A stretch of DNA of 64,000 bases from an uncultured Allomuricauda sp. (lineage in GTDB: Bacteria; Bacteroidota; Bacteroidia; Flavobacteriales; Flavobacteriaceae). Positions 7,885-55,305 of the stretch are shown here, piece by piece; the first letter of the stretch is position 1; every line of letters starts with the position of its first letter. The DNA is taken from assembly GCF_937884665.1 (NCBI RefSeq), contig NZ_CAKZYF010000190.1:1-64000 (forward strand), given 5' to 3'. The notes beneath the pieces are model-generated. The model was not told the DNA's origin and did no database searches. It worked only from the letters and a program-made list of their open reading frames with translations. Made by a program: the position numbers and the translations under genes.

Positions 7885-7900
7885 CGATTCTATTTTCGTT

Positions 7901-7942
7901 CAAAAAACAAAGAACTCCTGAGGTCATACCATCAGGAGTTCT
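7901..7942 (-). terminator. Intrinsic terminator after aconitase
   Basis: An 11-bp perfect stem (7911-7921 with 7932-7942) is followed on the minus strand by a T-rich stretch (7901-7910). It lies 21 nt after the aconitase stop. The next minus-strand gene begins at 7884, so leakage could feed the TlpA/crtA operon. Confidence 0.85.
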
Positions 7943-7962
7943 GTTTTATCTAAACTATAAAA

Positions 7963-10233: not shown

Positions 10234-10337
10234 TATAGAATTGGGTTTTTAAGATTTTCGTAATTCCGTAAAATTACTAAAATACCGAGGATTTAAGACT
10301 TAGAACAATCCTAAATAAGGAGGTACCTCACCCCTAT

Positions 10338-11291
10338 TTACAGTAACTCGGAGATAATCCGTTCTTCGGATATGCTCTCGGCTTCCGCCTTGTAATTTTT
10401 TAAAATACGATGCCGCAAAATACCTGTGGCCACCGCACGTATGTCCTCTATGTCCGGTGAAAACTTACCGTTCACCGCGGCATGGGCCTTAGCTCCCAAC
10501 ACTAGATTTTGGGAAGCACGGGGGCCGGCACCCCAGTCGATAAAGTTGTTCACAAAATCTGAAGCCCCATTGATACCTGGTCTGGTCTTATGGACCAATC
10601 GAACGGCATAATCGATTACATTATCAGGGACGGGAATACGGCGCACTAAATGTTGAATCGCTATAATCTCCTCAGCGTTAAAAAGGGTATTCACTTCAAT
10701 TTCATCATCGTTCGTGGTGGATTTTACCACTTGGATTTCCTCATCAACTGAAGGATACTTCAACTCAATGGCGAACATAAAACGGTCTAACTGGGCTTCT
10801 GGAAGCGGATAGGTCCCCTCTTGCTCAATTGGATTCTGGGTGGCCAGCACGAAATAAGGCAAATCCAATTTAAACTGATGGCCCGCAATGGTCACCGCTC
10901 TTTCCTGCATCGCTTCCAACAAGGCAGCTTGGGTCTTGGGCGGTGTTCGATTGATTTCATCCGCCAAAATTATATTTCCAAATACTGGGCCTTTCACGAA
11001 TTTAAAATTTCGATTCTGGTCGAGTATCTCACTTCCCAAAATATCACTCGGCATTAAATCCGGCGTAAACTGGATGCGCTTAAAATCAAGACCCAGTGTT
11101 TTCGCGATGGTATTTACCATAAGTGTTTTGGCCAATCCTGGCACCCCGACCAATAAGGAGTGACCGCCTGTATAAATGGATAGTAGGATTTGTTCTATAA
11201 CGCTTTCCTGACCAACGATTACCTTGGCAATTTCTTTTTTTAGGTCTTGATGTTTTTTTACGAGCTTTTCAACTGCTCCAACGTCTGACAT
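10338..11291 (-). CDS. MoxR-family AAA+ ATPase
   Basis: A 317-aa MoxR ATPase. Walker A GVPGLAKT is at residues 49-56 and Walker B ILADEINR ends at 115, followed by PKTQAALLEAMQE. Sensor 1 is in LATQNPIEQEG. MoxR proteins act as chaperones for assembly of metal centres or envelope complexes, often with a VWA-domain partner, but none is adjacent here. It starts 4 nt after the SurA-like gene, so it belongs to that operon. Confidence 0.92.
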   Translation of the reverse strand: MSDVGAVEKLVKKHQDLKKEIAKVIVGQESVIEQILLSIYTGGHSLLVGVPGLAKTLMVNTIAKTLGLDFKRIQFTPDLMPSDILGSEILDQNRNFKFVKGPVFGNIILADEINRTPPKTQAALLEAMQERAVTIAGHQFKLDLPYFVLATQNPIEQEGTYPLPEAQLDRFMFAIELKYPSVDEEIQVVKSTTNDDEIEVNTLFNAEEIIAIQHLVRRIPVPDNVIDYAVRLVHKTRPGINGASDFVNNFIDWGAGPRASQNLVLGAKAHAAVNGKFSPDIEDIRAVATGILRHRILKNYKAEAESISEERIISELL

Positions 11292-11295
11292 GTAT

Positions 11296-12702
11296 TTATT
11301 CCTTTACCCAGTTGTTTGCAAAAGTACAGCTCCTATTGTCTTCATCAACGTGGATGTAAGCATCCTCAATATGTTCATTCATCCACTTTTTGATTGCATT
11401 AAACTGTTTTTCCCGCAACGCCAACTCCTGGATTTTTAAATAGTCTTTCGCAAAATCAGCTTTATGTTCATCAAAACGATTGGTTATCTGCATTATTTTG
11501 AATTTTGGGGCCCCTCCCCGGGGATCATCTTCCTTCAACGGTCTACAGATTTCATTATCTTTTAGATTCCGGACTTGATTATAAAGGGCAGGGTCCATTT
11601 TGGTAAGTTCAAACCTCGAATCAAAATTGATCGGGTTTCGGAGTAAACCGCCATCAAACTTGGTCTCTTTCTCATCAGAGAAATTCAAAGCGGCCTCTGC
11701 AAAGGTGTATTTACCATCTAGAATATGCTGTCGAATGCTGTCCAACTCCTTCACTGCCGTCTCCATGGCGCTTTGCGGTATTTCAGGTATCAACAGGATG
11801 TGTCGAAGGTCAACTTCCTGGCCCCTAATTTTTTCGACAAGAATAATGTGGTACCCAAATGTGGTTTCAAATGGTTCAGAGATTTCACCTTCTTGCAAAC
11901 TGAAGGCCACATCCTTAAATTCTTTGACGAATGGGGTTTCCCGGGTCATGCTGTAAAATCCCCCTTTGGACTTAGATCCCGGATCCTGGGAGTAAAGTAT
12001 GGCCTTTACGTTAAAGCTGGCATCATTTTCTTCCACATCTTGCTTAATCTGTTTGAGACGATTGATGGCTTTTTGCTTTTCCTCTTCCGGTGCGGTGGGT
12101 TGTTTTACAATTTGGGCGATTTCCAACTCCGCGCCAAATATCGGACGTTCTTCTTCGGGTATCTTGTTGAAGAACTGACGTACCTCTTCGGGGGTCACTT
12201 CAAGTTCCTCCACTATTTTGGCCTGCATTTTTTCAGAGAGCATCCGTAACTTATTGATGTCGAAAAGTTCCTTTCGAAAACTTTCGATATCCGGTTTTTT
12301 ATAGAATTTCAATACTTTTTCCATGGAGCCCACTTGTGCCACCAATTGTTGGATTTGACGATCGCTCTGGGCATTCACTTGCTCATCGGACACCAACAGA
12401 CTGTCCTGTACGGCCTGATGGGCATACAAGCGGTCTTCCATCAATTTTCCCAAAAGACTGCAATGGGTGATGTCCTGTGTTGAGGCACCCTGACTTTTCA
12501 AGTCGATCAATGTTTTTTCGATGTCGGAATCCAGAATGACATAATCGCCTACCACGGCGGCAATTCCATCTAATTTGACCTTTTCGGTTGAAGTAACCGA
12601 ATCATTCACCGCTTGAAGGTTTTCTTCTGCCATCTGTCCATTTACCAAGGTAATCGCGCTCAAAAAAAGCAGGAACGCAACATATCTACTTTGTATTTTC
12701 AT
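11296..12702 (-). CDS. SurA-like periplasmic peptidylprolyl isomerase
   Basis: A protein of 468 aa with a signal peptide, beginning MKIQSRYVAFLL and probably cleaved after VNGQ. An N-terminal SurA-like helical region is followed by two parvulin domains; the second includes VDLRHILLIP and the first FKDVAFSLQEGEISEPFETTFGYHII. It would help outer membrane proteins fold. The ATG at 12702 is chosen over one 36 nt upstream, because it gives a clean signal peptide and a 17-nt overlap with the upstream gene. It is the second gene of a foldase operon ending with moxR. Confidence 0.88.
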   Translation of the reverse strand: MKIQSRYVAFLLFLSAITLVNGQMAEENLQAVNDSVTSTEKVKLDGIAAVVGDYVILDSDIEKTLIDLKSQGASTQDITHCSLLGKLMEDRLYAHQAVQDSLLVSDEQVNAQSDRQIQQLVAQVGSMEKVLKFYKKPDIESFRKELFDINKLRMLSEKMQAKIVEELEVTPEEVRQFFNKIPEEERPIFGAELEIAQIVKQPTAPEEEKQKAINRLKQIKQDVEENDASFNVKAILYSQDPGSKSKGGFYSMTRETPFVKEFKDVAFSLQEGEISEPFETTFGYHIILVEKIRGQEVDLRHILLIPEIPQSAMETAVKELDSIRQHILDGKYTFAEAALNFSDEKETKFDGGLLRNPINFDSRFELTKMDPALYNQVRNLKDNEICRPLKEDDPRGGAPKFKIMQITNRFDEHKADFAKDYLKIQELALREKQFNAIKKWMNEHIEDAYIHVDEDNRSCTFANNWVKE

Positions 12703-40952: not shown

Positions 40953-41009
40953 ACTATACCTAATTTATGTTTAATCAAAAATACAATTAATCCAACAGAT
41001 AAATCTTTG

Positions 41010-41048
41010 TTTTAGAAAAGAAAACGCACTTCCGGGCGAAAGTGCGTT
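41010..41048 (-). terminator. Terminator-like hairpin facing away from htpG
   Basis: AACGCACTT (41023-41031) pairs with AAGTGCGTT (41040-41048) around an 8-nt loop. Read on the minus strand it is followed by TTCTTTTC. No minus-strand gene is seen to the right (htpG is plus), so it may end a small RNA; alternatively it belongs to the leader of the TetR/AarF transcript. Confidence 0.5.
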
Positions 41049-41209
41049 CTCAACAACCTAACCAATAAATAAACAAACTCGTTATAGTTTTACTAATTCA
41101 TAGCAATTTTCTACAACTCTACAAATATAAGTATTTGTTTAGCTTTTCCAAATAAACGATAAACAAAATGTTGTTAAATTTTAAAAAAAGGGGTGCAAGC
41201 CCACTATTC

Positions 41210-41222
41210 TGTCAGTTTGTCA
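41210..41222 (+). promoter_or_regulatory. Direct repeat TGTCAgttTGTCA upstream of htpG
   Basis: Two TGTCA copies separated by GTT lie 58 nt before the htpG ATG. It is the only obvious repeat in this intergenic region and may be a promoter or regulator site for heat-shock induction; that role is inferred. Confidence 0.35.
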
Positions 41223-41280
41223 TATACCTGGGTGTGGTATTTTTTTTGACGTGATGGTAGCAAATTAAACAGTAAATACA

Positions 41281-43167
41281 ATGGCAACAGGCAAAATAAA
41301 TGTTTCCGTAGAAAACATTTTTCCCTTAATCAAAAAATTTCTTTACAGCGACCATGAAATTTTTCTCAGGGAACTGATTTCAAATGCTACGGACGCAACC
41401 TTAAAGTTAAAACACCTCACCTCCATAGGGGAAGCGAAGGTCGAGTACGGAAATCCCCTAATAGAAGTTAAGGTAGATAAAGACCAGAAACGTATCCACA
41501 TTACCGATCAGGGTATCGGAATGACAGAAGAAGAGGTCAAAAAATACATCAATGAAGTGGCTTTTTCCGGTGCTGAGGAATTCTTGGATAAATACAAGGA
41601 TGCCGAAAAAGATTCTGGGATCATTGGACACTTTGGACTCGGTTTTTATTCCGCTTTTATGGTTGCTGACAAAGTGGAAATCTTCTCAAAAAGTTTTAAA
41701 GATGAACCAGCGGTTCATTGGTCCTGCGACGGTTCTCCCGAGTTTACCCTTCAAGAAGCTGACAAAACCGACCGAGGAACTGAAATCATCCTTCACATAG
41801 CAGAAGACTCCACTGAATTCTTGGAGGAGTCCAAAATCCGCGAATTGTTGAAGAAGTACAATAAATTTATGCCCATTCCCATCAAGTTTGGGACAAAGAC
41901 CGAGACCTTACCGAAACCCGAGGGAGCAAAAGAGGAGGACCCTGCACCGACTCAGGAGGTAGACGATATTGTGAACAATCCCACTCCGGCATGGACCAAA
42001 CCACCAAAGGATTTGAAGGATGAAGATTACAAATCCTTTTATCGGGAATTGTATCCCATGCAGTTTGAAGAGCCCTTGTTCAACATTCATTTAAATGTGG
42101 ACTATCCTTTCAATCTGACCGGGATTTTATATTTCCCCAAATTGACCAACGACCTCAGCATTCAGAAGGATAGGATTCAACTTTATCAAAATCAGGTATT
42201 TGTAACAGATAACGTAGAAGGGATCGTTCCGGAATTCTTGACCATGTTGCGCGGGGTCATCGATTCACCGGACATTCCGCTCAACGTATCGCGCTCTTAC
42301 CTGCAAGCGGATGGTGCCGTTAAGAAAATTGCTTCCTACATCACACGAAAAGTCGCGGACAAATTGAACTCTTTGTTCAAAAACGACAGGGAAGACTTTG
42401 AAAAAAAGTGGAACGATATCAAAGTCGTCATTGAATATGGAATGCTATCCGAAGAAAAATTCTATGAAAAAGCAGAAAAGTTCGCCCTATATCCCACGGT
42501 AGACGGAGCATACTTCACTTTTGAGGAGCTGGAAAGCAAAATTAAGGACAACCAGACCGATAAAGACGATAAATTGGTAATACTTTACGCCTCAGATAAG
42601 GAAGCACAGCATAGTTACATCGAAGCAGCAAAAACCAAAGGTTATGAAGTTCTACTTCTTGATTCGCCCATTATATCGCATTTGATGCAAAAGATGGAGA
42701 CCTCCAAGGAAAAATTATCTTTTGCCAGAGTAGATGCGGACCATGTTGACAATCTTATCAAAAAGGAAGATACTGCCATTTCCAAACTTTCGGACGAAGA
42801 AAAGGACAAATTGAAAGAAGAGTTGGAAAAAGTTATTTCGGATAAGGGGTATACCATCCAGATGGAGGCGATGGACAGTTCTGCTTCCCCTTTTATCGTA
42901 ACAGAACCCGAGTTTATGAGAAGAATGAAGGAAATGCAACAATCTGGCGGGGGCGGTATGTTCGGTATGGGCAATATGCCCGAAATGTTCAACCTTATCG
43001 TGAACACCAACCATGAACTGGTCGGCGAAATCCTGAATACAAAAACGGCCAAGAAACGTGAGCGTCTAATCAATCAATCTTTGGATTTGGCCAGATTGTC
43101 AAAGGGACTGCTCAGAGGAGAAGAACTTACCAATTTCATTTCTAGGAGTTACGAAATGATAAAATAA
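41281..43167 (+). CDS. htpG: Molecular chaperone HtpG (Hsp90)
   Basis: A 628-aa Hsp90. The ATP-binding N-domain has ELISNATDATLK, ITDQGIGMT and GHFGLGFYSAFMV. The middle domain has PFNLTGILYFP, and NVSRSYLQAD is near residue 340. The C-terminal dimerisation domain carries a Gly/Met-rich stretch (GGGGMFGMGNMPEMF). It is single-gene and has its own terminator. Confidence 0.96.
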   Translation: MATGKINVSVENIFPLIKKFLYSDHEIFLRELISNATDATLKLKHLTSIGEAKVEYGNPLIEVKVDKDQKRIHITDQGIGMTEEEVKKYINEVAFSGAEEFLDKYKDAEKDSGIIGHFGLGFYSAFMVADKVEIFSKSFKDEPAVHWSCDGSPEFTLQEADKTDRGTEIILHIAEDSTEFLEESKIRELLKKYNKFMPIPIKFGTKTETLPKPEGAKEEDPAPTQEVDDIVNNPTPAWTKPPKDLKDEDYKSFYRELYPMQFEEPLFNIHLNVDYPFNLTGILYFPKLTNDLSIQKDRIQLYQNQVFVTDNVEGIVPEFLTMLRGVIDSPDIPLNVSRSYLQADGAVKKIASYITRKVADKLNSLFKNDREDFEKKWNDIKVVIEYGMLSEEKFYEKAEKFALYPTVDGAYFTFEELESKIKDNQTDKDDKLVILYASDKEAQHSYIEAAKTKGYEVLLLDSPIISHLMQKMETSKEKLSFARVDADHVDNLIKKEDTAISKLSDEEKDKLKEELEKVISDKGYTIQMEAMDSSASPFIVTEPEFMRRMKEMQQSGGGGMFGMGNMPEMFNLIVNTNHELVGEILNTKTAKKRERLINQSLDLARLSKGLLRGEELTNFISRSYEMIK

Positions 43168-43201
43168 GTTTAGTGTTCCTTCTGGAATTTTACAAAAAGT
43201 A

Positions 43202-43248
43202 AAACCGCCCTTTCTTAAAAAAAACTTAAAATGAAGGGCGGTTTTTTT
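43202..43248 (+). terminator. Terminator of htpG
   Basis: AAACCGCCCTT (43202-43212) pairs with AAGGGCGGTTT (43234-43244), A-rich loop, followed by a T-run. It starts 35 nt after the htpG stop. Confidence 0.88.
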
Positions 43249-43292
43249 GTGCAATTCCATGGGAAAATTTATTTTCAGGAAATTTATCACCG

Positions 43293-44636
43293 ATGTCGAA
43301 CGATGAGCGGAAACTAAACTTCAAAAAATGGTTGGATTTACTTCAACAGGAAACGTGGCAGTTGGAGTTACTCATTTCTGGATTTGCGATTTTTGGGCTT
43401 GTTCAATCCTTTGAGCCCATCGAATTGGCACACCTTAAGGCAATTGCCAATGAAAAATTGATCAACCAGCGTCTTTTTAGTCTCCTACAGGGCTGCGTCA
43501 GCATTTTAACCATGGTGCTCATACTACACGTCATTTTAAGGGGCGTATGGATTGGAGCTGTGGGACTTCGATATGTTTCTGGTGATATAGATTTTGACGA
43601 TTTGAAGTATAGCCAGAAGTTCACTTCTTTTCTGGAGAAGAAAGTAGGCCCGTTTGACCGGTATATCGAAAGACTCGAGAACATCTGCAGTAGTCTTTTT
43701 GCATTGGCTTTTCTGATGCTGTTTTTTTACCTTTCCATCTTTATATTCTCCTTTATTTACATTGCCGCCCTGAATATTCTTTATTCTATCGATTCCATAC
43801 CAAATGATAAAAAAATAATTATCAATGCGGTCGTACAACTATTCTTGGGGATTTTTACGATCATCTATTTTATTGATTTTATCACCGGTGGTATTTTAAA
43901 AAAGAATCGTCTGGTCGCTAAGGTATATTTTCCGATATATCGATTTTTCGGATTTCTCACACTGGCCTTTTTGTATAGGCCATTGCTGTACAATTTTCTC
44001 GACCAAAAGCGCGGTAAATGGATCGCACTGTTCACACTGCCCGTTCTTCTTATCTTTTCTGTGTTCGTCGGGACGTTCGAAAAGCCAAAATCAAATTACA
44101 TTTTGGAGAACCAGTCCACATCATCGGTATATGCCAATAAACTGAACTATGAAGATCAAATGTTAAAGGATACCGACATGGTAGATTACGCTTCTATTTC
44201 TTCCATGGTTATCGATAAACCATACGTATCGTTATTTATCGCGTATAACAATTTTAAGGAAGACGCGGTTTTCTGGTACGATAGTATCTTGGCTCCGAAA
44301 CAGGATAAACGGAAATTCTCTTTTAATCTATCCAAATTTGCATCAGCCAACCCGCTACAAACCTTGGAACCAGATAGCGTGACGCTCTCAAAACAAGTCA
44401 ACTATTTAAAGGTGCTCAACGAATTGTATGAAATACGTATCGACAGTACGGCCTATGGACATGAATTTGTTTTTACCACGAATAAAAACGATAGATTGGG
44501 TTTTAAGACCATTTTAGACTTGAAGTATCTAGAAAGAGGAAAACACGCATTACATATTGTGGGACCTCAGATGGAAGAAAACCAATTCATGATCGATACT
44601 ACCAGAACAATCCCTTTTTGGTATTTTCCTGATTGA
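43293..44636 (+). CDS. Six-TM membrane protein of unknown function, copy 1
   Basis: A 447-aa protein without a recognised family. Residues 1-30 contain the conserved LLQQETWQLELLISGFAIFGL. About six hydrophobic helices lie between 22 and 265, with conserved LRGVWIGAVGLRYVSGDIDFDDLKYSQKF between TM2 and TM3 and FLTLAFLYRPLLYNFLDQ around TM5. A soluble domain of about 180 residues follows, with SS(x)2YANKLNY and a final TIPFW. A paralog at 49061-50398 shares all of these. It converges with the propeller-like gene at 44654, 17 nt away. Function unknown; a sensory or channel-like role is only a guess. Confidence 0.8.
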   Translation: MSNDERKLNFKKWLDLLQQETWQLELLISGFAIFGLVQSFEPIELAHLKAIANEKLINQRLFSLLQGCVSILTMVLILHVILRGVWIGAVGLRYVSGDIDFDDLKYSQKFTSFLEKKVGPFDRYIERLENICSSLFALAFLMLFFYLSIFIFSFIYIAALNILYSIDSIPNDKKIIINAVVQLFLGIFTIIYFIDFITGGILKKNRLVAKVYFPIYRFFGFLTLAFLYRPLLYNFLDQKRGKWIALFTLPVLLIFSVFVGTFEKPKSNYILENQSTSSVYANKLNYEDQMLKDTDMVDYASISSMVIDKPYVSLFIAYNNFKEDAVFWYDSILAPKQDKRKFSFNLSKFASANPLQTLEPDSVTLSKQVNYLKVLNELYEIRIDSTAYGHEFVFTTNKNDRLGFKTILDLKYLERGKHALHIVGPQMEENQFMIDTTRTIPFWYFPD

Positions 44637-44653
44637 CATTTCTTTATGTTCCG

Positions 44654-46135
44654 TCATTTTTCCAATTTGACCAGCGAGGCGCCACCCGCATAATAAAGGT
44701 TCCCCTCTTCGTCAATTATCTGCTGACAACCCCCGTCATCCCATGGATTGTTCAACCATTTGCACGCTTTTCCCAAATGCTTGCGGAATACCAGCTCCCC
44801 AGTGTCCCAATCCAAACCATAGTAGTAATAATTACAGCCCGCTTCCCTTCCGCTGCCGTAAACCATATTGGAACCCTTACTGTACGTTAACACGCCATTC
44901 ATGTTAATTTCAGTATTGACCCATTGTATCTCAAACCTATCCGTGTCCACGTTCCAACGCACCTTTTGAACACCTTTCATCGGTTTTTTCCCCTGTCCCA
45001 AGAACCCATTGAACTGCGCTATGGCAACATCATAACCATACACCGTTGGTGAGTTCTCAATAGATTGGAACTTTTCACTGAATCGCTTGGCTGCTGGAAG
45101 CTGTATTTTTCCAGCCAAACGCATATCCTCACCCGGAAGACCGTTCCAAGTTTTTGGAATTTCTCTCCAAAAGGCCAAAAGATTGTTTTTTTGATGGCCA
45201 TCGGCGACAATAATCAACTTATCGGCTCCTTGACGGAAACCCATAAGGGTAGGTGTGGTGCCACTACCCTCGGCAAACCTTCCCTTGGGACCATCCTTTA
45301 CAAAGTCGTACCAAGCCTCAAATCCTTTGGTAAGTGCTACGCCATCCCAATTTATTTGGATCAACCGATGGGTCGTGACGACATACATCGCGTTGTCCTC
45401 ATCAATTGGAAAAGCATTATGGCCAAAAATTTCATTCGGAACGGGCTTTATCAACAGTGTGTCCAATAATGAGAAATTTGGGGCAATTATTCCAAAAACT
45501 GCATCATTTCCTTTTTTATTATCACCGGAGTAAAATGCTATTTGTCCACTGTAATTGATGGCAAAATGCTGGACCTTATCCTTTGCAATGTCTTTAAAAC
45601 TAAAGGTATCCTGGACAACCAGTTTGGAGTAGATATTATCTGGTTGAGCATCGGCTATTTTGAACAATCGAGTATATTCTCCCTTTTTGGGATTATACTT
45701 CGGGTCATAGGTATACCAAACATTTCCCTTGGTCTGAAGAAAGTTCCATCCAAAGGATTTTAACCAATCCGAGTCGATTTTCACTTTGGATACTATGCGG
45801 ATTCCCTGTTTGTCATCCACCATTTTATAAAAATGGGTGGCGTTCGATTGCAAGATGGCCCGTTTTCCATTAGGATATTTCTCGGAAAAATACGTCCAAG
45901 GTGAAGTACCACCTTTGATACCCTTTAGAACTTTAACCGTTGCCTTTTCCGAATCTAGGGGTCCGGCAAAATCCGAGTAAGACTGCCGGTAACTATTTCC
46001 ATGGTAAGTGGGCCATGGAGAGTCTGCCAAAAAAGGATTTCTTGGTACCGTTTCACTAGGATTTATTTGAGCTTGTCCAAACAAGGGGCCAAAAAAGAGG
46101 CCGAGCAAAAGAATCCGTTTAAAATAGGTTTTCAT
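44654..46135 (-). CDS. Secreted beta-propeller-like (PQQ-repeat-like) protein, copy 1
   Basis: A 493-aa protein with a signal peptide (MKTYFKRILLLGLFFGPLFGQAQ). The mature start has NPFLADSPWPTYHGNSYRQS; the body is a series of beta-rich repeats with Trp and Gly-Asp turns resembling PQQ or BamB-like propellers; it ends GGCQQIIDEEGNLYYAGGASL. It shares the N-terminal motif and the EIPK-W-LPG-RxAGxI block with the gene upstream. The ATG at 46135 is chosen because it opens the signal peptide; it lies 26 nt after the upstream stop. Function unknown. Confidence 0.78.
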   Translation of the reverse strand: MKTYFKRILLLGLFFGPLFGQAQINPSETVPRNPFLADSPWPTYHGNSYRQSYSDFAGPLDSEKATVKVLKGIKGGTSPWTYFSEKYPNGKRAILQSNATHFYKMVDDKQGIRIVSKVKIDSDWLKSFGWNFLQTKGNVWYTYDPKYNPKKGEYTRLFKIADAQPDNIYSKLVVQDTFSFKDIAKDKVQHFAINYSGQIAFYSGDNKKGNDAVFGIIAPNFSLLDTLLIKPVPNEIFGHNAFPIDEDNAMYVVTTHRLIQINWDGVALTKGFEAWYDFVKDGPKGRFAEGSGTTPTLMGFRQGADKLIIVADGHQKNNLLAFWREIPKTWNGLPGEDMRLAGKIQLPAAKRFSEKFQSIENSPTVYGYDVAIAQFNGFLGQGKKPMKGVQKVRWNVDTDRFEIQWVNTEINMNGVLTYSKGSNMVYGSGREAGCNYYYYGLDWDTGELVFRKHLGKACKWLNNPWDDGGCQQIIDEEGNLYYAGGASLVKLEK

Positions 46136-46161
46136 GGTCAATAATTGATTGTGATGGGTTG

Positions 46162-47571
46162 TCAATTTGTTGGGTTAGACGTTTGGTAAAGCCGGAAAGC
46201 TGCCTTTGGGGTCATAAATACAATATCACCGTTCCAACCTATTTGGATACCGCTTCCCGTGGCATTATTCATTTTTTCGGTACCCAATGGAAGATAAAAT
46301 GAGGAAATTCCTGTTCGCCAATCAATGGCCTCAAAAGTCCATAAGCGCTTTTTTCCGGGCAACTTCCTTCTCCCCACCGCATATACCAATCCGGTTTGGG
46401 TACTTAAAGCCTGCATGCTGTTTGGAAGTGCAATTTCGGTATTTATCCATTCCTTTTCAAAACGGTTCCTTTCAGAATCCCAAAAGTATTTTGAAAGACC
46501 TGGATTGTCCTTCTTGCCATAAGGCCACAGTCCTGTCCAATTTGCAACCAACACCTTATTATTGTGCACCAAGACGGAATTTTTGGAAGGTTTTGGTTTA
46601 TTTTTTCCGTAGTCTATTTTAATTTCACCGGCAATCCTTCTTACTTTTCCAGGCAAAGCCTTCCATTCTTTTGGTATTTCTTGGCGCCAGAGTGCAAAAA
46701 GAACCAAGGGATCGCTTTCATTGGTCACTACCAGCAATTTATCTTCTCCAGCATTCATTAAACTTAGAGTGCTTCCACTTTTCTCCGTTTTGGCAAACCA
46801 ATTTTGCTTGATGCCATTTTGCCCAACTTGAAACTGATACGTTCCTCTGTTACTGTTGATGTAGACAAAATCCCCCTCCTCCACGGCCATGTTATTCTGG
46901 ATCTTTTCTTCCAGATTTAGAATCTGAACAATTTTCCTGCTATCTGTATCGAACAACGCTATTTTACCTTTTCGCGTTGTAATTACGATTTGCCCATTGT
47001 ACAAAAGCTTCATACCTATCATGAAATCAAGTCCAGGTCCTTTGGTCTTCAATTCTGGAGTCGGTATTTTGGCGAGCAGTTCGATTTCGGAATAGGGGTC
47101 CTCTAAATCTTTGTCCCTAAGAATGTATAAAGTCCAGTCGGACATAAAATAACAGAGCTTATTCTTGGCCATTACCCAATAGCCGCTCACTAATTTATGG
47201 CCTAGTTTGGCTTTGTCAGCGAAAATCACTTGAGTCTTATCGTTTTCAATAATGAGTTTATAAATCTTTTTGGCATTAGTGCCCCAACATACATAAGCAC
47301 CGTTCGGGTATCGCTCCGAAACTATTGTCCCTGAAGGAGACCATCCGTCATTTGCCGTGCCAAAGGGGATACGGTCCAATTTCAGGTTTCCCAAGGATGC
47401 TAAGGATGCCTCATCCGTACTTTGTTGGCAATAGGTGCCATGCCCTTCGGGCCAGGGAGAATCTGGGGCAAACGGATTTCTTGTTTGTGCCAAACAAAGG
47501 GTTGTAAAAAGAAAAACGATAAAGAATGTAATTCTCACGGCATATATATTGAGGACATCTACTTTTCCCAT
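46162..47571 (-). CDS. Secreted beta-propeller-like (PQQ-repeat-like) protein, copy 2
   Basis: A 469-aa paralog of the previous gene, with an N-terminal signal peptide (FFIVFLFTTLCLAQ) and mature start NPFAPDSPWPEGHGTYCQQS. It shares QEIPKEWKALPGKVRRIAGEI with its neighbour. No PQQ enzyme active-site residues were recognised, so it may be a structural or binding protein. It is the first gene of this two-gene unit, 55 nt after the small secreted protein gene ends. Confidence 0.78.
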   Translation of the reverse strand: MGKVDVLNIYAVRITFFIVFLFTTLCLAQTRNPFAPDSPWPEGHGTYCQQSTDEASLASLGNLKLDRIPFGTANDGWSPSGTIVSERYPNGAYVCWGTNAKKIYKLIIENDKTQVIFADKAKLGHKLVSGYWVMAKNKLCYFMSDWTLYILRDKDLEDPYSEIELLAKIPTPELKTKGPGLDFMIGMKLLYNGQIVITTRKGKIALFDTDSRKIVQILNLEEKIQNNMAVEEGDFVYINSNRGTYQFQVGQNGIKQNWFAKTEKSGSTLSLMNAGEDKLLVVTNESDPLVLFALWRQEIPKEWKALPGKVRRIAGEIKIDYGKNKPKPSKNSVLVHNNKVLVANWTGLWPYGKKDNPGLSKYFWDSERNRFEKEWINTEIALPNSMQALSTQTGLVYAVGRRKLPGKKRLWTFEAIDWRTGISSFYLPLGTEKMNNATGSGIQIGWNGDIVFMTPKAAFRLYQTSNPTN

Positions 47572-47623
47572 TAAAATCGAATTGGTAGATTACCTAAGTC
47601 ACACAATTTTCCAACACATAAAA

Positions 47624-48136
47624 CTAAAACTCAGCATCTTTGGGCAATTTATTTCTATCTATTTGATTTCCAAGTTTATCATAAAAAACGTAGGTAATGG
47701 TACTTCCTTTTTTGAGTCGAACCCGATAGTATTCCTTTTGGGTCTGATACAGCTTGATATGGGTCCCGCCTGTAATTCGATATCCCGGGAAACCCGATTC
47801 TAAATCGGGAAGTAAAAAACCTGGTATGGTCTTCGGACCATAGTACTCCGCGTAGTAAATCAATACGCCACTAGGTGTATACCGGGCATTGCTCAACGGA
47901 CGTTTGCCTTCCTTCATGACCGATATATAACGTGTAAAGCTGTTACCTTGCCTCCCGGTAGACTCTTGACTTTTCCATCGCACAACTTTTTTCCCTTCAA
48001 AATTAGCGTTCTGTGCAGTGATCACTTCAGAAGGAACCTCACCAACAGAGATAATCGTTCCCTTAAATGTTGTGCTTTGGCCAAACAAATCGCATAGAAA
48101 AAAAAGGGCAGCGCCTAAAAGATAAATGGGTTTCAT
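47624..48136 (-). CDS. Small secreted protein, PepSY-like fold suggested
   Basis: A 170-aa protein with a signal peptide (MKPIYLLGAALFFLCDLFGQS). The mature part has a VP(x)2V(x)2A(x)2ANFEGKKVVRW pattern and a following strand ARYTPSGVLIYYAEYYG, reminiscent of PepSY-like or BLIP-like small domains of Bacteroidota. The start at 48136 gives the signal peptide; in-frame sequence upstream does not. It is divergent from the LytTR gene (96-nt gap) and upstream of the propeller pair. Confidence 0.65.
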   Translation of the reverse strand: MKPIYLLGAALFFLCDLFGQSTTFKGTIISVGEVPSEVITAQNANFEGKKVVRWKSQESTGRQGNSFTRYISVMKEGKRPLSNARYTPSGVLIYYAEYYGPKTIPGFLLPDLESGFPGYRITGGTHIKLYQTQKEYYRVRLKKGSTITYVFYDKLGNQIDRNKLPKDAEF

Positions 48137-48232
48137 ATAAAAAGCTTTAAAGGTTAAACTATTATTAATACATTTCTTTTCACAAGGAACTGCATAATAC
48201 ATGCCCTTAGTACCCAATTGAAGGACTTTTCA

Positions 48233-49021
48233 ATGAATTCAGGCAAATTTTCAACCAAATGGCAACAAATGATTTCCACGAGAAGGGCAACCTACCTATC
48301 GATTGCATTTCTTCTGTTGGTATTGGCCGCATGGAATTATTATCGGGAGTTTTTTAGACTGGACCAAGCCCTATCTTTGGGGTTTCTCTTAGCGCTTGAA
48401 ACATTTGGAATGTTGGCGGTAGGCTATTTCTGGCTAAGTAAATCGCCTAAGTTTCCCAGGGTCTCATTTTGGATTTGGACTTTGATATTTACCTTATTGC
48501 GGTGGCTCGTCGTTTTCTTCATACTTCAACACCATTTACCCAATTGGACCGTGTTCCATTACCCGGACCGGGCTGTTGTTTATCTGTTATCCACATCTGC
48601 CACACTTATTTTTCTGGGCTACAGCTACTCAATCTACGAATGGGGGCTGGCCGCCAGAATGGAATATATATCCAAAACAAAAAATACCTTTGGAAATTTC
48701 CAAAGTCCAATACAAATACGAAGTGAAGGAAAAACCATTCGCCTGCTACCCCATGAGATATTTTATTTGGAAGCTAAAGGAGAGTATGTGAACTACATAA
48801 CCCGAAATGCAAACTATATGTGTTTTCAAAGAATGAAAGTGGCAGAAAGCAAGTTGGGGGAGTACGGATTTCTTAGGGCCCATAGATCCTTTATAATAAA
48901 TCCTATGGCTGTCAAATCATTTTCATCCCATAAGCTAGAAATGGAGGACCACAAGGAAATACCTATTGGCAATACCTACAAAACAGGACTCATCAATGTT
49001 TTGAGAGTACATGAAAAGTAA
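48233..49021 (+). CDS. Membrane-anchored LytTR regulator
   Basis: A 262-aa protein with four N-terminal TM helices (about 20-135) and a C-terminal LytTR DNA-binding domain (about 165-258: RLLPHEIFYLEAKGEYVNYI, FLRAHRSFIINPMAV, IPIGNTYK). It lacks a receiver domain, so it probably senses a membrane or periplasmic signal directly. ATG 48233 is preferred to TTG 48218. It is followed after 39 nt by the six-TM copy 2. Confidence 0.87.
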   Translation: MNSGKFSTKWQQMISTRRATYLSIAFLLLVLAAWNYYREFFRLDQALSLGFLLALETFGMLAVGYFWLSKSPKFPRVSFWIWTLIFTLLRWLVVFFILQHHLPNWTVFHYPDRAVVYLLSTSATLIFLGYSYSIYEWGLAARMEYISKTKNTFGNFQSPIQIRSEGKTIRLLPHEIFYLEAKGEYVNYITRNANYMCFQRMKVAESKLGEYGFLRAHRSFIINPMAVKSFSSHKLEMEDHKEIPIGNTYKTGLINVLRVHEK

Positions 49022-49060
49022 GAACGTTTGTGATCAACCAATTTATACAACCAACATACC

Positions 49061-50398
49061 ATGAGCACCGATTATAAAAGCCCGTCATTTAAAAAACTGC
49101 TGGATTCTCTTCAACAACAAAGTTGGGAACTTGAACTTATTATTTCGGGGTTTGCCATTTTTGGACTTTTTACAGCGTACGAGCCGATAAAAACCTCTAT
49201 GTTGAATGCCCAGAACGGAGATCAGATATACAGCTTTATCGTTTTCTTCATTGCCTTGATGGTTTGCTCCATCTTATTGTTCAACTTACTGCTCCACGTT
49301 GTTCTGCGTGGACTATGGATCGGTGCTTTGGGCTTGCGATATGTCTCTGGCGACATAGAATTTGATCAATTGAAGTACGCTGAGAAATTCAAAAAGTATC
49401 TGCGGAAAAAAATTGTCTCCTTTGATAGATATATCGCCAATTTGGAAAACTATTGCAGTGTACTTTTTGCAATTTCGTTTCTTCTCGTGTTCTATGTCCT
49501 GGCCATTGCCTGCGTTAATATTTCCATCGTATTGGTGGCCAACTTCATTATTCAAAATGATGCCCTCCCCGGATGGCTGTCCTATGGATTGGGCACTGTC
49601 TTGATGCTATTTTTAGGGATAGGAATGTTTTTGACCTTCTTTGATTTTATTACCCAAGGTCTTCTCAAAAGAAATAAATGGATTGCCAGAATCTACTTTC
49701 CCTTTTACTGGGTCTTTAGCTTTATTACCTTATCCTTTCTCTACAGACCCCTGGTGTACAACTTTTTGGACCATCGTTTTGGAAAACGTTTGATTCTACT
49801 TTTGACGCCCATTTATCTTTTGATTCTTTTTCTGACCTCATTGGAAAACAGAAACTCCAATTTTTGGGATGAAGATGCAAGTTCATCCGAAATCTTCGCG
49901 AACAAAGACAATTACGCCGATATGCAGACCAAGGAAGATGATTATCCAGGAAATGTTGTCATTCCCTCAAAGGTTGTCACTGATGATTATTTACAGATAT
50001 TCTTACCGTTCTCAGGAAAAATAGAAGATAGGATTTTTGAATTTGACGAATCCTTACGGCCGGAGAACGACCGTAGAGGGCTGAGATCAAAAATTGAGTT
50101 CAGCTCCAATGGCGGCGATAGATTGACCCGTCGAAAGCGGAAGGACAGCATCCGCAAAAAGTATATCGATGTATTCAATGTCATGTATTCATTTAAAATT
50201 GACAGTTTGGATTTTGACAGCGAATTTATATTGACAAAAGATAAGGGAGACCATCTCGGATTTGAAACCTATCTGAATTTGGATAGCCTTTCTGAAGGCA
50301 AGCACAATTTAAAACTGATACAAAGAAAAATATCCACGGAAGGAGATACTGCAAAACTTACCATGCGCACTGTCCCGTTTTGGCATTACAAAAAATGA
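49061..50398 (+). CDS. Six-TM membrane protein of unknown function, copy 2
   Basis: A 445-aa paralog of the protein at 43293: SLQQQSWELELIISGFAIFGL at the start, LRGLWIGALGLRYVSGDIEFDQLKYAEKF, SFITLSFLYRPLVYNFLDH, SS-EIFANK-DNYAD, and a final TVPFW. The C-terminal soluble half is more divergent than the membrane half. It lies 39 nt after the LytTR gene and 124 nt before the AraC gene. Function unknown. Confidence 0.8.
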   Translation: MSTDYKSPSFKKLLDSLQQQSWELELIISGFAIFGLFTAYEPIKTSMLNAQNGDQIYSFIVFFIALMVCSILLFNLLLHVVLRGLWIGALGLRYVSGDIEFDQLKYAEKFKKYLRKKIVSFDRYIANLENYCSVLFAISFLLVFYVLAIACVNISIVLVANFIIQNDALPGWLSYGLGTVLMLFLGIGMFLTFFDFITQGLLKRNKWIARIYFPFYWVFSFITLSFLYRPLVYNFLDHRFGKRLILLLTPIYLLILFLTSLENRNSNFWDEDASSSEIFANKDNYADMQTKEDDYPGNVVIPSKVVTDDYLQIFLPFSGKIEDRIFEFDESLRPENDRRGLRSKIEFSSNGGDRLTRRKRKDSIRKKYIDVFNVMYSFKIDSLDFDSEFILTKDKGDHLGFETYLNLDSLSEGKHNLKLIQRKISTEGDTAKLTMRTVPFWHYKK

Positions 50399-50522
50399 AA
50401 CGTAGATTCCCGATCAGGGAAATCGAACTACTGCAAATGCAGCTGATGTGCTAAAATTAGTACTTTGACCATAGTGATAATCTGCCCATAATTCACTAAC
50501 TTTTCCTTAAACAGTTGATGAA

Positions 50523-51638
50523 ATGGAAATCAATTACAATATTATTTCCACCATCCATATTTTTGGTTTTCTTCAAGGTCTGATTCTTGGTTCCATTCTT
50601 TTGGTTATAAGTAGAAAAAAGGACAGGTCCACCTTTTTTTTGGCCCTCTTCGTCTTGACCTATACCTATTGCTTTATCCCCATAGTGCTAGAAGACATGC
50701 ATATTCTGAGGTATTTCCCTGAACTCCAGGTTCTACCAAGACCTGGAGAATGGTTGTTGGCCGCACTGTTTTTTATCTATATCCAGCGAATTTCCATCCT
50801 CACTAACGAAACCATACATTATTGGTGGTTGTACCCAGGGGCCGTCATTGTAGTGCTACAGATCATTCTGTTTTTTTTTCCCATAAGCATAAAAACAGGG
50901 ATTGCCCAGGCCTTCTGGTATAAACCAATTTTTTTATTGGGGCATGTATATTCCACTGCGATTTTGATTTACGGTATACGTGTGCTTAACAGACATGTCA
51001 GGGAAGTAGGAAATCAATATTCCAATTTGGATTCCAAAAACCTTATCTGGGTAAGACGCTTTTTAATGTTTGCGGTAGTACTGTTTGCCATGCATTTTAT
51101 AGCCTATTTTACGTACGAATCCACCTTAATCCGTGTTCTCTATGCCAGTATGAATGTCTTTATGCTGTATTGGGCCTCGATTCACGGGGTGATACAACCC
51201 AACATTACTTCCGTAATCTCCGAAAATCCTAGTTCGGATATCCCCAAAGGGAACGATAAAAATCCAAAGGAAATCAATATTATTCCTGTTTCTGAAATGC
51301 GACTGATCGTGGACAAGGTAGAAGAGTATATCACAAATACCGAAGTTTTTATGGATAAAAACCTGACCATTACCAACGTCGCTGAGGCAATGCATGTACA
51401 TCCTAAAAGAATTTCGATGTCCATAAATAAAGTATGCCAGGAAAACTTTAATACCTACATCAATCGACATCGAATTGAAAAAGCGGAAAAAATGCTTTTG
51501 GACAAGCATTCACAAAACTTCAGTATTGAAGGAATTGGTACTGAAGTCGGATTTCAAAGCAAAAGCGCCTTCTACACCGCTTTTAAGAGAATTACAGGAA
51601 CCACCCCATTTCGATACAAAGAAAAACTGGCCTCTTGA
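50523..51638 (+). CDS. Membrane-anchored AraC-family regulator
   Basis: A 371-aa protein with about seven N-terminal hydrophobic helices (to about residue 225) and a C-terminal AraC/XylS domain of two helix-turn-helices (about 275-368; LTITNVAEAMHVHPKRISMSINKV and FSIEGIGTEVGFQSKSAFYTAFKRITG). Such one-component membrane regulators are common in Flavobacteriia. It follows the six-TM copy 2. Confidence 0.87.
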   Translation: MEINYNIISTIHIFGFLQGLILGSILLVISRKKDRSTFFLALFVLTYTYCFIPIVLEDMHILRYFPELQVLPRPGEWLLAALFFIYIQRISILTNETIHYWWLYPGAVIVVLQIILFFFPISIKTGIAQAFWYKPIFLLGHVYSTAILIYGIRVLNRHVREVGNQYSNLDSKNLIWVRRFLMFAVVLFAMHFIAYFTYESTLIRVLYASMNVFMLYWASIHGVIQPNITSVISENPSSDIPKGNDKNPKEINIIPVSEMRLIVDKVEEYITNTEVFMDKNLTITNVAEAMHVHPKRISMSINKVCQENFNTYINRHRIEKAEKMLLDKHSQNFSIEGIGTEVGFQSKSAFYTAFKRITGTTPFRYKEKLAS

Positions 51639-51908
51639 AGCGCATGCCCACTTTCAGATTTGCCGATGAACTTGCAAAAATTCAAAAACATGCAAAACGA
51701 TATCGTGTATAGGAAATGTTGTGTTTTGGACCGTAACATTGTCTAAAAAAGATAGTACCTAACACTGCCAGTTAAACAACATGTCTATCGTCCATTCGAA
51801 GTAAAAAATGGAAAATAGTTCGCATGTCTGCATTCCGAACTCAATCCAAACCGCATTTCTTTCCCATGTCAGGCCAAAAATGAATATTTGCCGCCTCAAT
51901 AAATTAGC

Positions 51909-52097
51909 ATGGATTTATCGAAGTATGTCAGTTGGTTATGTTTGGCCATTATTTGGGTCTGTTTTGTTCTGTGGGAGATTCAAATTCAATCCTGGTTACA
52001 AATCAATCCGTCCTTTGTGGTGCGGTATGATTTGATGTTATTGCCCCTACTCATGGTTGTTTCGTTTTACGTAGTGTACGTAACACTCAAAAAGTAA
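51909..52097 (+). CDS. Small two-TM protein
   Basis: A 62-aa very hydrophobic protein with two predicted TM helices (LCLAIIWVCFVLWEI and LMLLPLLMVVSFYVVYVTL). It is 4 nt before the cupin-like gene and in the same direction, which supports it as a real gene. No family is recognised. Confidence 0.55.
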   Translation: MDLSKYVSWLCLAIIWVCFVLWEIQIQSWLQINPSFVVRYDLMLLPLLMVVSFYVVYVTLKK

Positions 52098-52101
52098 GGC
52101 T

Positions 52102-52503
52102 ATGAAATGTGTACAATTGAATCCCGAAGGCAATTTTGATTTGTGGGATGTGGAGAAAATCAAAGAACTGAAGGACGAGGAAAGCATTCGGGATTCTCTT
52201 GGACAAAAATTATTGTATGAAAATGGTTCTTCGCGTCTTTGGGATATCACCCTATGGCCCAACCAGCGTATTCCATTTCGGAGACATCGATTTCCCTGTA
52301 GTTTTGTCTGCATAACTTCTGGTCTTTCCATTTCAAGATACGGAAACGGAAAAATCAAGTTGATCCAGTTTGAAAAAGGGGATACCGAATACTTGGAACC
52401 AGACCAAGAAAATTACATTCACGATATGGAAAACATAGGGGATTCCGTATTAAAAATGTATGTCCTTGAATTTCGGTACGAAGAAAACGTAAAAAACAGT
52501 TGA
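52102..52503 (+). CDS. Small cupin-like protein
   Basis: A 133-aa cytoplasmic protein. RLWDITLWPNQRIPFRRHRFP, GNGKIKLIQFEKGDTEYLEPDQ and VLKMYVLEFRYEE give the alternating beta-strand pattern of a single cupin or RmlC-like barrel. Metal-binding histidines are few, so catalytic activity is doubtful. Paired with the small TM protein upstream. Confidence 0.6.
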   Translation: MKCVQLNPEGNFDLWDVEKIKELKDEESIRDSLGQKLLYENGSSRLWDITLWPNQRIPFRRHRFPCSFVCITSGLSISRYGNGKIKLIQFEKGDTEYLEPDQENYIHDMENIGDSVLKMYVLEFRYEENVKNS

Positions 52504-52558
52504 TCTAATTCCCTTGTTCAACAAGTGAACTTTCCTGACGGTTTCTTACCTTCATGGA

Positions 52559-53209
52559 GTGAAAGTCATCAGTACAAATCTAGGCAAGCCCGTTTTTTTT
52601 GAATGGAATGGGGAAAAACAGGCAACGGGAATTTATAAATATCCTGTTGATGGCCCACTGCTCTTGAAAGAAGAAGATGTAGCCGGAGATACCGTCTCCG
52701 ACCGCAGAGTGCACGGGGGTATTTTTAAAGCGTGCTATCTCTTTTCTTCTGATTTTTATCCATACTGGAAAGAAAAGTATCCAGATTTGAAATGGAATTG
52801 GGGAATGTTCGGTGAAAATCTGACCGTGGCCGGTTTGGATGAATCAGAACTAATGATAGGGAATATTTACCAGTTGGGAACCGCATTGGTACAAATAACC
52901 GAACCGAGAGAGCCCTGCTACAAACTGGGCATCCGTTTTGGGACCCAAGATATTTTGAAACAGTTCATTGACCATGGCCACCCGGGAACCTATATTCGAA
53001 TTCTGAAAACAGGCCAAGTCCAGATAGGTGATGAACTCCAACTCGTGGAACAAGCCAAAAGATCGCTTAGCACAAAACAGTTATATGAACAGCTCTTCGC
53101 CCGGAAAAAAAATCCAAACCTTCTACAACTGGCCGTTGAAAACGAAGCACTGCCCATTCGGAAGAGAGAAAAATTAAAAAAACTGCTAGAAAGAGGAAAA
53201 GCCCCATAA
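52559..53209 (+). CDS. MOSC domain protein (YiiM-like)
   Basis: A 216-aa protein with the MOSC motif: VSDRRVHGGIFKACYLFSSDFYPYWKE, GMFGENLTVAGLDE, and the Cys in REPCYKLGIRFG. MOSC proteins handle molybdenum-cofactor sulfur or N-hydroxylated bases. The start is a GTG at 52559, because the in-frame ATG context upstream meets TGA. C-terminal part is basic and helical. Confidence 0.88.
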   Translation: MKVISTNLGKPVFFEWNGEKQATGIYKYPVDGPLLLKEEDVAGDTVSDRRVHGGIFKACYLFSSDFYPYWKEKYPDLKWNWGMFGENLTVAGLDESELMIGNIYQLGTALVQITEPREPCYKLGIRFGTQDILKQFIDHGHPGTYIRILKTGQVQIGDELQLVEQAKRSLSTKQLYEQLFARKKNPNLLQLAVENEALPIRKREKLKKLLERGKAP

Positions 53210-53244
53210 AGAGGCCCTTCCTTAACTGAAATTAACTAAACAAC

Positions 53245-53625
53245 TTATCTTATTCGCATGGTCTCCGTATAAGTACCCAACTTATCGACCACCACAACGG
53301 TATACTCATCTTCAAAAGCCTTTTCAAAATTGAATGCTTTTTCTACTACAATTTCGCCTTCGATGGTCTCGCTGTACACCATACGATCTTCAGAATCGTA
53401 TACTTTGAGCAATACGGTTCCCTGTGTTAAGTTCAATAAGTTCAAAAGAAGTTTATCCCCCTTTTTGATAAACACAGGTTCCAATGTAACCGCGATCAAG
53501 TTTTTTTCTACTTCTGCTTTTGCTACACCTTTTTTGTTAAGGTGCACTGCGGCTTTGTTGGCCATTCCCAATCCTGATACCAACAAAAGTCCGGCTACTG
53601 TAATTGATTTAAACACTGATTTCAT
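53245..53625 (-). CDS. Small secreted beta-rich protein
   Basis: A 126-aa protein with a signal peptide (MKSVFKSITVAGLLLVSGLGMANK). The mature part has beta-strands like an Ig-like or DUF3244-type domain (VLLKVYDSEDRMVYSETIEGE, EYTVVVVDKLGTYTETMRI). The start at 53625 is chosen because it opens the signal peptide. Its promoter box is at 53654-53661. Function unknown. Confidence 0.7.
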   Translation of the reverse strand: MKSVFKSITVAGLLLVSGLGMANKAAVHLNKKGVAKAEVEKNLIAVTLEPVFIKKGDKLLLNLLNLTQGTVLLKVYDSEDRMVYSETIEGEIVVEKAFNFEKAFEDEYTVVVVDKLGTYTETMRIR

Positions 53626-53653
53626 AACGTTTTCGTTTTTTAAGATTACAAAG

Positions 53654-53661
53654 CAAAAGTA
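53654..53661 (-). promoter_or_regulatory. Promoter -7 box of the small secreted protein
   Basis: On the minus strand TACTTTTG matches TAnnTTTG exactly, 28 nt before the ATG at 53625. Confidence 0.55.
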
Positions 53662-53710
53662 TCTGGGAATTGTACATAAAAACACGACCATTTTTTCCAA
53701 TATCTGTGGG

Positions 53711-53777
53711 ATTTTACCATCTCTAGTATGTTAAATTGGTATTAAAGGTAATTTACCATAGTTTTTTGGTAATTTTG
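53711..53777 (+). promoter_or_regulatory. Promoter and TTACCAT repeats of the AraC gene
   Basis: TAATTTTG at 53770-53777 is an exact TAnnTTTG box 38 nt before the ATG. Upstream lie two near-identical copies of ATTTTACCAT/AATTTACCAT (53711-53720 and 53750-53759) and the small palindrome GGTAATTTACC (53747-53757). The repeats may be binding sites of the AraC protein itself. Confidence 0.45.
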
Positions 53778-53815
53778 CATAGATTCCATGTTGGGGCAAC
53801 GTATACCTTTATTAT

Positions 53816-54706
53816 ATGAAAGGAAAAATGGGTATGATTTTACAAAAACCTGCTTTTGAGGCAATTGCGCCGAACTTTGGACATTCATTTACCTATCAAA
53901 AGTTCAATGCGAACAAGGAAAATAAAAATAATGGTTGGCATTATCATCCTGAGTTAGAACTTGTTTACATTAATGGAGGGTCCGGAAAACGCCAAATTGG
54001 AAGCCATGTATCCTATTTTAGGGATGGCGACCTTATTTTAATTGGCTCTAATCTGCCCCATTGTGGATTTACCGATAAACTGACCGGGAATAAAAGTGAG
54101 ACCATCATACAGATGAAATACGATTTCTTGGGAAGCGATTTTTTCAATATCCCGGAAATGAAGAATATCCAAAACCTTTTTGAAGTGGCCAAGGGCGGTA
54201 TCGCATTTTCCGGCAAGACAAAAATGAAGGTTGGGGAAAAGATGGAGATTTTGGAGTATCAGACAGATTTCCAGCGCCTGCTGTCCATATTGAACATTTT
54301 AAACGTTCTCGCTACCTCAGATGATATCAAAGTTTTGAACGCTGAAGGTTTTTCCATTGAAACAGAGGTAAAGGACAACGACCGAATCAATATTGTATTC
54401 AATCATGTAAAGGCACATTTTAAAGAAGATATTACCTTAGAGGAAATTGCAAATAAGGTCAGTATGACGGTCCCCTCCTTCTGTCGCTATTTTAAGAAAA
54501 TCACAAATAAAACCTTTACGCAGTTCGTCAATGAATATCGTTTGGTCCATGCGTCCAAATTGTTGGCAGAACAGCCCATGAGCATAACCCAGGTATGTTA
54601 TGAAAGTGGATTTAACAATTTCTCCCATTTCAATAAGTCGTTCAAAGCCTTTACAGGTCAAAATCCATCGGAATATAGAAACCAGCTAAAGACCATACTT
54701 CAATAA
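53816..54706 (+). CDS. AraC-family transcriptional regulator with cupin sensor
   Basis: A 296-aa regulator: an N-terminal cupin (about 30-130; GWHYHPELELVYINGGSGKRQIG) and two C-terminal helix-turn-helices (ITLEEIANKVSMTVPSFCRYFKKITNKTFTQFVN and SITQVCYESGFNNFSHFNKSFKAFTG). It likely responds to a small metabolite. Its stop is 2 nt before the AlkB-like gene, which is probably in the same transcript. Confidence 0.9.
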   Translation: MKGKMGMILQKPAFEAIAPNFGHSFTYQKFNANKENKNNGWHYHPELELVYINGGSGKRQIGSHVSYFRDGDLILIGSNLPHCGFTDKLTGNKSETIIQMKYDFLGSDFFNIPEMKNIQNLFEVAKGGIAFSGKTKMKVGEKMEILEYQTDFQRLLSILNILNVLATSDDIKVLNAEGFSIETEVKDNDRINIVFNHVKAHFKEDITLEEIANKVSMTVPSFCRYFKKITNKTFTQFVNEYRLVHASKLLAEQPMSITQVCYESGFNNFSHFNKSFKAFTGQNPSEYRNQLKTILQ

Positions 54707-54708
54707 GG

Positions 54709-55305
54709 ATGCAATTATTTAGCGAAAAACGGTACCTAGAGTTGCCAGATAGCGATATTTGGTACTACCCCGGTTTTTTAGCCAAGCAAGAAGCTGACCG
54801 GTATTTCCATTTACTCAAGAATAAAACACCCTGGCGCCAAGATAATATCAAACTATTTGGAAAGGTATATGCCCAACCTAGATTGACCGCTTTGTATGCC
54901 AATAATGACAAGAGTTATTCGTATTCCAACATTACAATGTACCCCCAGCGGTTCAATGAGGAGTTACTCTCGCTTAAAAAACGCATCGACACTGAGGCAA
55001 ATATCGAGTTTACCACCTGTTTGCTCAATCTGTACAGAGATGGAAAAGACAGCAATGGATGGCATTCAGATGATGAAAAGGAACTAGGTCAAAACCCGGT
55101 TATCGCTTCGGTTACCTTAGGCACCGAACGTTTTTTCCATTTGCGGCATAAGTCCAACAAAGCCCTAAAGCACAAAATTTTACTCGAACACGGCAGTTTG
55201 CTATTGATGAAGGGACAGACCCAACATTTTTGGCAACACCAAATTGCCAAGACTTCTAAAAAAATTGGTGAACGAATAAATTTGACCTTTCGGGTAATTC
55301 AGTAA
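54709..55305 (+). CDS. AlkB-family 2-oxoglutarate-dependent dioxygenase
   Basis: A 198-aa Fe(II)/2OG oxygenase. The metal ligands are in GWHSDDEKELG (HxD) and in FWQHQIAKT (His); the 2OG-binding Arg is in RINLTFRVI. It would repair alkylated bases by oxidative demethylation, like E. coli AlkB or human ALKBH2/3. It is 2 nt after an AraC regulator and 18 nt before the TIGR03643 gene. Confidence 0.9.
   Translation: MQLFSEKRYLELPDSDIWYYPGFLAKQEADRYFHLLKNKTPWRQDNIKLFGKVYAQPRLTALYANNDKSYSYSNITMYPQRFNEELLSLKKRIDTEANIEFTTCLLNLYRDGKDSNGWHSDDEKELGQNPVIASVTLGTERFFHLRHKSNKALKHKILLEHGSLLLMKGQTQHFWQHQIAKTSKKIGERINLTFRVIQ

Follow-up and report, generated by a model that had tools for sequence, protein, structure and literature searches.

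A LytTR regulator gene and its small exported partner beside an older membrane-protein locus in an uncultured Allomuricauda: an apparently composite gene cluster

We examined a stretch of 64,000 nucleotides (hereafter the window) from an uncultured Allomuricauda sp. (contig NZ_CAKZYF010000190.1 of RefSeq assembly GCF_937884665.1), in which seven genes at 43293-51638 encode two related membrane proteins, two propeller-like proteins, a small exported protein and two regulators. An earlier note on this DNA had read them as a single sensing unit. The gene cluster is real, but it most likely represents more than one system. We favour, at a probability of roughly 0.55, a composite of two units, in which an accessory regulator cassette consisting of a LytTR gene and a small-protein gene lies beside an older locus of membrane proteins described as having six transmembrane (six-TM) segments.

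The cluster opens on the forward strand with tmA (43293-44636), a membrane protein gene whose identity to tmB and placement in a tree suggest an old paralogue of the latter. Three genes follow on the reverse strand: propA (44654-46135), for a predicted BamB/YxaL-type beta propeller with a signal peptide seen in the sequence; propB (46162-47571), its paralogue by sequence identity; and small (47624-48136), for a small exported protein recognised by its identity to copies at other loci, the constant partner of the LytTR gene. The region between small and the divergent LytTR gene holds a conserved element (48183-48206, forward strand), a candidate operator or promoter part that was found by aligning five loci. 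The remaining genes are on the forward strand: lytTR (48233-49021), for a transcription factor apparently anchored in the membrane by its hydrophobic N-terminal half; tmB (49061-50398), for a conserved membrane protein with a C-terminal domain that resembles a beta sandwich, judging by relatives' sequences and a predicted model; a membrane AraC-type regulator gene (50523-51638); and, past the cluster, a cupin-like gene (52102-52503; sub-threshold Cupin_2 match, E 0.15). For propA, small and lytTR the listed open reading frames are longer (44654-46165, 47624-48217 and 48218-49021), and the ATG codons at 46135, 48136 and 48233 were judged the likelier starts. The proteins of tmA, tmB, propA, propB and small reached no Pfam or NCBIfam cut-off. 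There was no Rfam match at gathering score within 41000-55000, and promoter and terminator scans remained at chance level. The G+C content of the cassette genes is 40-43% against 41% window-wide, and thus gives no compositional sign of recent transfer.

Much of what the earlier note saw in the individual genes holds. The membrane proteins tmA and tmB are indeed paralogues (E 3e-119; 184 of 446 aligned positions identical, or 41%), as are the two secreted propeller-like proteins (27% identity, E 3e-33), and the LytTR protein and the AraC regulator that follows have the expected Pfam domains (LytTR, E 2.4e-16; HTH_18, E 2e-16). The number of membrane segments needs some adjustment. In tmA and tmB, hydropathy and charge are in keeping with five membrane crossings and a further segment that is re-entrant or amphipathic, making 'six-TM' an approximate label, and this topology would place their C-terminal domain in the periplasm. 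As for the four helices given to the LytTR protein, two segments exceeded the threshold of a hydropathy scan and two more were judged by eye.

The first reason for the composite reading is the company that six-TM genes keep elsewhere. From a scan of named genomes we kept the best 80 of 110 confirmed six-TM relatives; these loci are biased to close kin, mostly of the Muricauda, Allomuricauda, Flagellimonas and Croceivirga types, some are cut by contig ends, and the counts represent non-independent events. A LytTR, a small and a propA gene within three genes of the six-TM gene were found at two of them (L034 and L067), and a membrane AraC gene within two genes, with a cupin gene within three, at five (L033, L035, L037, L063 and L091). 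The earlier note had asked whether LytTR, AraC or propeller genes always neighbour the six-TM family, and had itself named a neighbourhood not conserved in other genomes as evidence against its idea, which is what these counts reveal. Further afield, 20 more distant six-TM loci (six from the same family as the window) had no match to propA, small or the ECF (extracytoplasmic function) sigma, anti-sigma-like and DUF6249 genes discussed below in the 5-11.3 kb read, and one of them (L193) had a weak LytTR match. The absence of the cassette from 78 of the 80 kept loci, and likewise of propA and small from all 20 distant ones, argues for two units. That all seven genes constitute one undescribed envelope-sensing system seems very improbable: they do lie within 8.3 kb of the window, but the full set occurs at none of the 80 kept loci and its parts are found separately.

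The second reason is that the LytTR gene and its partner recur away from both six-TM and propeller genes. A profile of the LytTR protein (E <= 1e-30, at most 22 candidates scored per genome) matched three of 118 relatives, namely the window's own genome, G505 and G544 (one genus). In the latter two the LytTR protein is 52-54% identical to that of the window, and each gene is divergent from a small gene whose product is 62-67% identical to the window's (the copies of L034 and L067 reach 64-65%). Beyond the small gene, both genomes have a DUF1800 gene (E values of 3e-112 and 2e-112) and a DUF1501-type gene, the latter recognised at E 8e-36 at one of the two loci (L211) and by likeness at the other (L212). 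The 14.0 and 11.2 kb read around these pairs contained no six-TM or propA match (six-TM genes elsewhere in the two genomes were not searched for), and a genome-wide propA profile search of both gave none either. The pair is therefore separable from both, and the genes downstream of it vary. The part of the single sensing unit that survives is accordingly the small exported protein with the membrane-anchored LytTR factor, which meet again at this second kind of locus; the six-TM proteins and the AraC regulator fall outside it. DUF1800 and DUF1501 genes have been described as a pair that neighbours chitin synthase genes in bacteria, the DUF1501 protein bearing a twin-arginine motif (PMC5122149), and this agrees with exported outputs of the cassette.

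Thirdly, the intergenic block is conserved over all five known pairs. In the best aligned block over the five divergent regions 13 of 24 columns are invariant, while 100 shuffled sets yielded a maximum of 6, and the window copy (48183-48206) is the only site in the window within three mismatches of the derived pattern (0.16 expected by chance). This element is a candidate for the site where the LytTR domain would act.

Some observations weigh against the composite reading. The known pairs number only five and all come from close relatives, so common ancestry, for which the shuffles make no correction, could explain part of the conservation of the element. LytTR-type direct repeats (9-11 bp, spaced by 11-13 bp, upstream of the promoter) did not exceed chance in the regions scanned, those of the window, L034 and L067: out of 200 shuffles each, 200, 119 and 132, respectively, equalled or surpassed the best repeat. 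The small-protein profile matched nine of 199 genomes in an even sample of the family (the window's own included), and relatives in seven other genera had no LytTR match in the stretches read; the small protein is thus not always a LytTR partner. Finally, at all three propeller-bearing loci (window, L034 and L067) lytTR is followed, after a gap of 34-44 bp, by a six-TM gene in the same orientation. Such an arrangement would be expected of an operon, and an insertion just upstream of the six-TM gene would produce it too.

The same arrangement speaks for a rival reading, modelled on the LytTR regulatory system (LRS). In an LRS-like pair, lytTR and the six-TM gene would be one operon whose six-TM protein keeps the LytTR factor inactive until an envelope signal arrives, the propellers and the small protein being targets or ligands. 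In the LRS-like operons of Bacteroides (PMC6193735), LytTR regulators have several transmembrane segments before the DNA-binding domain, and in LRS operons the regulator lies upstream of the membrane protein; the window regulator, too, is encoded next to one. Nonetheless, we consider this explanation unlikely. In G505 and G544 no six-TM gene adjoins the pair, 78 of 80 six-TM genes have no LytTR neighbour, and the adjoining six-TM gene varies, being tmB at two loci and tmA at one. Furthermore, what is constant next to the LytTR gene is an opposite-strand gene for a small exported protein, whereas the membrane-protein neighbour changes. We do not claim LRS membership, as two defining features were looked for and neither was found: the direct repeats stayed at chance level in the window, L034 and L067, and a Pfam scan of tmA and tmB up to E 1 listed neither DUF3021 nor DUF2154.

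Another parallel is HigX of Caulobacter, a LytTR factor with four transmembrane segments whose membrane part is reported to be required for regulation (PMC13384398). Like HigX, the window protein appears to have N-terminal helices, no evident periplasmic domain and then a LytTR domain, and the precedent of HigX is a further reason for the composite reading. The setting differs: HigX adjoins higBA, whereas the window factor adjoins a divergent gene for a small exported protein together with exported outputs. In Firmicutes, LytTR domains are reported in operons with the envelope-stress proteins Toastrack and LiaI-LiaF (PMC11237479).

Under the composite reading, the first unit would be a long-standing flavobacterial membrane-protein locus, that of tmB, with the paralogue tmA in some genomes; in most close relatives it stands beside a cassette of ECF sigma, anti-sigma-like and DUF6249 genes, and in the clade of the window an AraC and a cupin gene stand there instead. 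The second unit would be the LytTR factor, anchored by its N-terminal helices, with the divergent small exported gene and then the exported output genes. With its membrane part the factor may sense either the small exported protein or how the inner membrane is faring. Its LytTR domain would act on the region between the two divergent genes, where the element at 48183-48206 is the probable site, to switch on the small and output genes as well as its own. The outputs would be exchangeable: the window has propellers, other loci have DUF1800- and DUF1501-type proteins. Any effect on tmB would come by read-through. Gene content, the modelled propA fold, the joint occurrence of the pair and the conservation of the element are what the analysis shows; sensing, binding and activation are inferred from them. 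More tentatively, one may see here a flavobacterial 'plug-in' switch, in which a LytTR factor, a small exported sensor, one divergent operator and varied outputs could capture a resident membrane gene by landing just upstream of it. The cassette lies between tmA and tmB in the window, before tmA in L067 and before the sole six-TM gene in L034; its history would fit an ancient presence followed by many losses, and also repeated gains at a single site. Membrane-anchored transcription factors are reported to be widespread, and to our knowledge the inputs and targets of most of them are unknown, which is in line with the discussion of the HigX study. The LytTR factor described here, which has an exported partner that recurs, a conserved element and two alternative sets of outputs, provides a direct approach to the question of what these factors sense.

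Another explanation concerns the six-TM proteins, which could be part or target of an ECF stress response whose control the AraC regulator took over in the clade of the window. At 61 of the 80 kept loci, anti-sigma-like and DUF6249 genes lie within five genes of the six-TM gene, and at 59 of the 61 an ECF sigma gene is also present (the anti-sigma label follows from the layout, that gene having no Pfam match), and they are its usual neighbours there. The cassette occurs in both orders, downstream of the six-TM gene at 45 loci and upstream at 16. Counted to the nearest of the anti-sigma-like and DUF6249 genes, it follows with one DoxX-like gene between at 38 of the former and directly at seven, and of the latter 15 are adjacent and one has a gene between. 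For a family below every Pfam and NCBIfam cut-off, this frequent ECF neighbour represents a first lead on its role. Moreover, in the family sample 25 of the 34 genomes with a six-TM gene also have DUF6249 (E <= 1e-8), compared to 59 of the 165 without, and in 14 of the 25, from 14 genera, the two genes lie within about 2.3 kb of each other (kinship being ignored). The genome of the window has no DUF6249 match at that threshold, none of its ECF genes exceeds 32% identity to that of the cassette, and the cassette itself is absent from the window locus.

We hold this explanation possible but doubtful. No cassette was seen in the stretches covered at 19 of the 80 loci, of which three end within 250 bases downstream (L044, L076 and L112), five have the AraC gene and 11 are others, L095 and L109 among the latter being on short stretches. 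In 11 of the 25 genomes with both genes they are apart or on different contigs, and shared descent among close relatives accounts for much of the 61. As the cassette was not seen at the 20 distant loci, the ECF link is a trait of the nearer relatives. At 50398-52559 of the window, an AraC and a cupin gene stand in place of the DoxX-like, anti-sigma-like, ECF and DUF6249 genes of relatives. Since these two occupy the site of the ECF cassette in most close relatives, the AraC gene seems to represent an event of its own; the cupin gene accompanies it at all five such loci.

The genome of the window holds two six-TM matches, both in the cluster. A 42-row tree places tmA with second copies of seven other genomes (100/99), separate from the main copies, although its long branch (1.04) makes the exact position unsure. 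The closest relatives of the window tmB are those of L033 and L091 (100/99), loci without tmA and without the LytTR cassette but with the AraC and cupin genes. Direct six-TM tandems occur at nine of the 80 kept loci. L075 has three six-TM genes in tandem (7241-11335), the first highly divergent (branch 2.31-2.54), and Tenacibaculum and Polaribacter harbour a second lineage (L083 and L096; 100/86 in the same tree), whose copy in L083 lies several genes from the main one. In the even sample of the family a six-TM gene is present in 34 of 199 genomes at E <= 1e-8. The count depends on the cut-off, being 49 at E <= 0.001; 14 of the 15 genomes thus dropped (all but G113) were re-scored with a profile of the six-TM family and reached E 0.025 at best, and the matches below 0.1 resemble what we take to be NqrB. 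In a sample of the phylum the family occurs in 18 of 296 genomes (E <= 1e-6), and 15 of the 18 fall outside the Flavobacteriaceae label (f1).

The predicted tmB model had no Foldseek match at E <= 0.001, and the six-TM profile none at E <= 1 among the sequences of solved structures. Residues ~297-445 align to immunoglobulin/fibronectin type III-like sandwiches with middling scores (best 6tn6, Z 6.6, root-mean-square deviation (rmsd) 3.0 over 87 residues), and the helical part had no telling structural match (best Z 7.4, rmsd 5.8). These results do not establish a new fold.

The small protein was likened by eye to PepSY_like (PF11396), an assignment that we rejected: the window protein has no match, and three of five relatives scanned reach E 0.013-0.054, below the family cut-off. 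Its profile gave three weak matches to the sequences of solved structures (best E 0.28). A short reading frame upstream of lytTR, noticed by eye, was set aside because it is broken in the window copy. In six of seven genomes read (L204-L209, near 5100), from six genera, the small gene adjoins a gene roughly 800 codons long and a presumable asparagine synthetase gene; in L208 one gene intervenes.

The fold of propA is better resolved. The predicted model, built from four sequences, has a mean predicted local distance difference test score (pLDDT) of 69 and a predicted template modelling score (pTM) of 0.74, and gave 475 Foldseek matches at E <= 0.001. It aligns with YxaL (7eq5_B; Z 30.1, rmsd 2.8, 341 residues) and BamB (8orr; Z 27.4, rmsd 2.8, 320 residues), and is a BamB/YxaL-type beta propeller as modelled, which bears out the guess of the earlier note; propB is taken as a propeller by homology. 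The fold is shared with BamB, YxaL and PQQ-type propellers, but propA reaches the cut-off of no Pfam propeller family, and its profile had two chance-level matches to the sequences of solved structures (best E 0.07). Relatives of propA are rare: one of 71 genomes of the genus (the window's own), four of 296 of the phylum (the window's own and three short or broken matches) and two of 199 of the family, the window's own and G145. The relative in G145 (L134, 1402-3069) is 31% identical over part of its length and lies in a different gene setting, with one neighbour ending like a sulfatase and another with MORN-like repeats, both recognised by eye.

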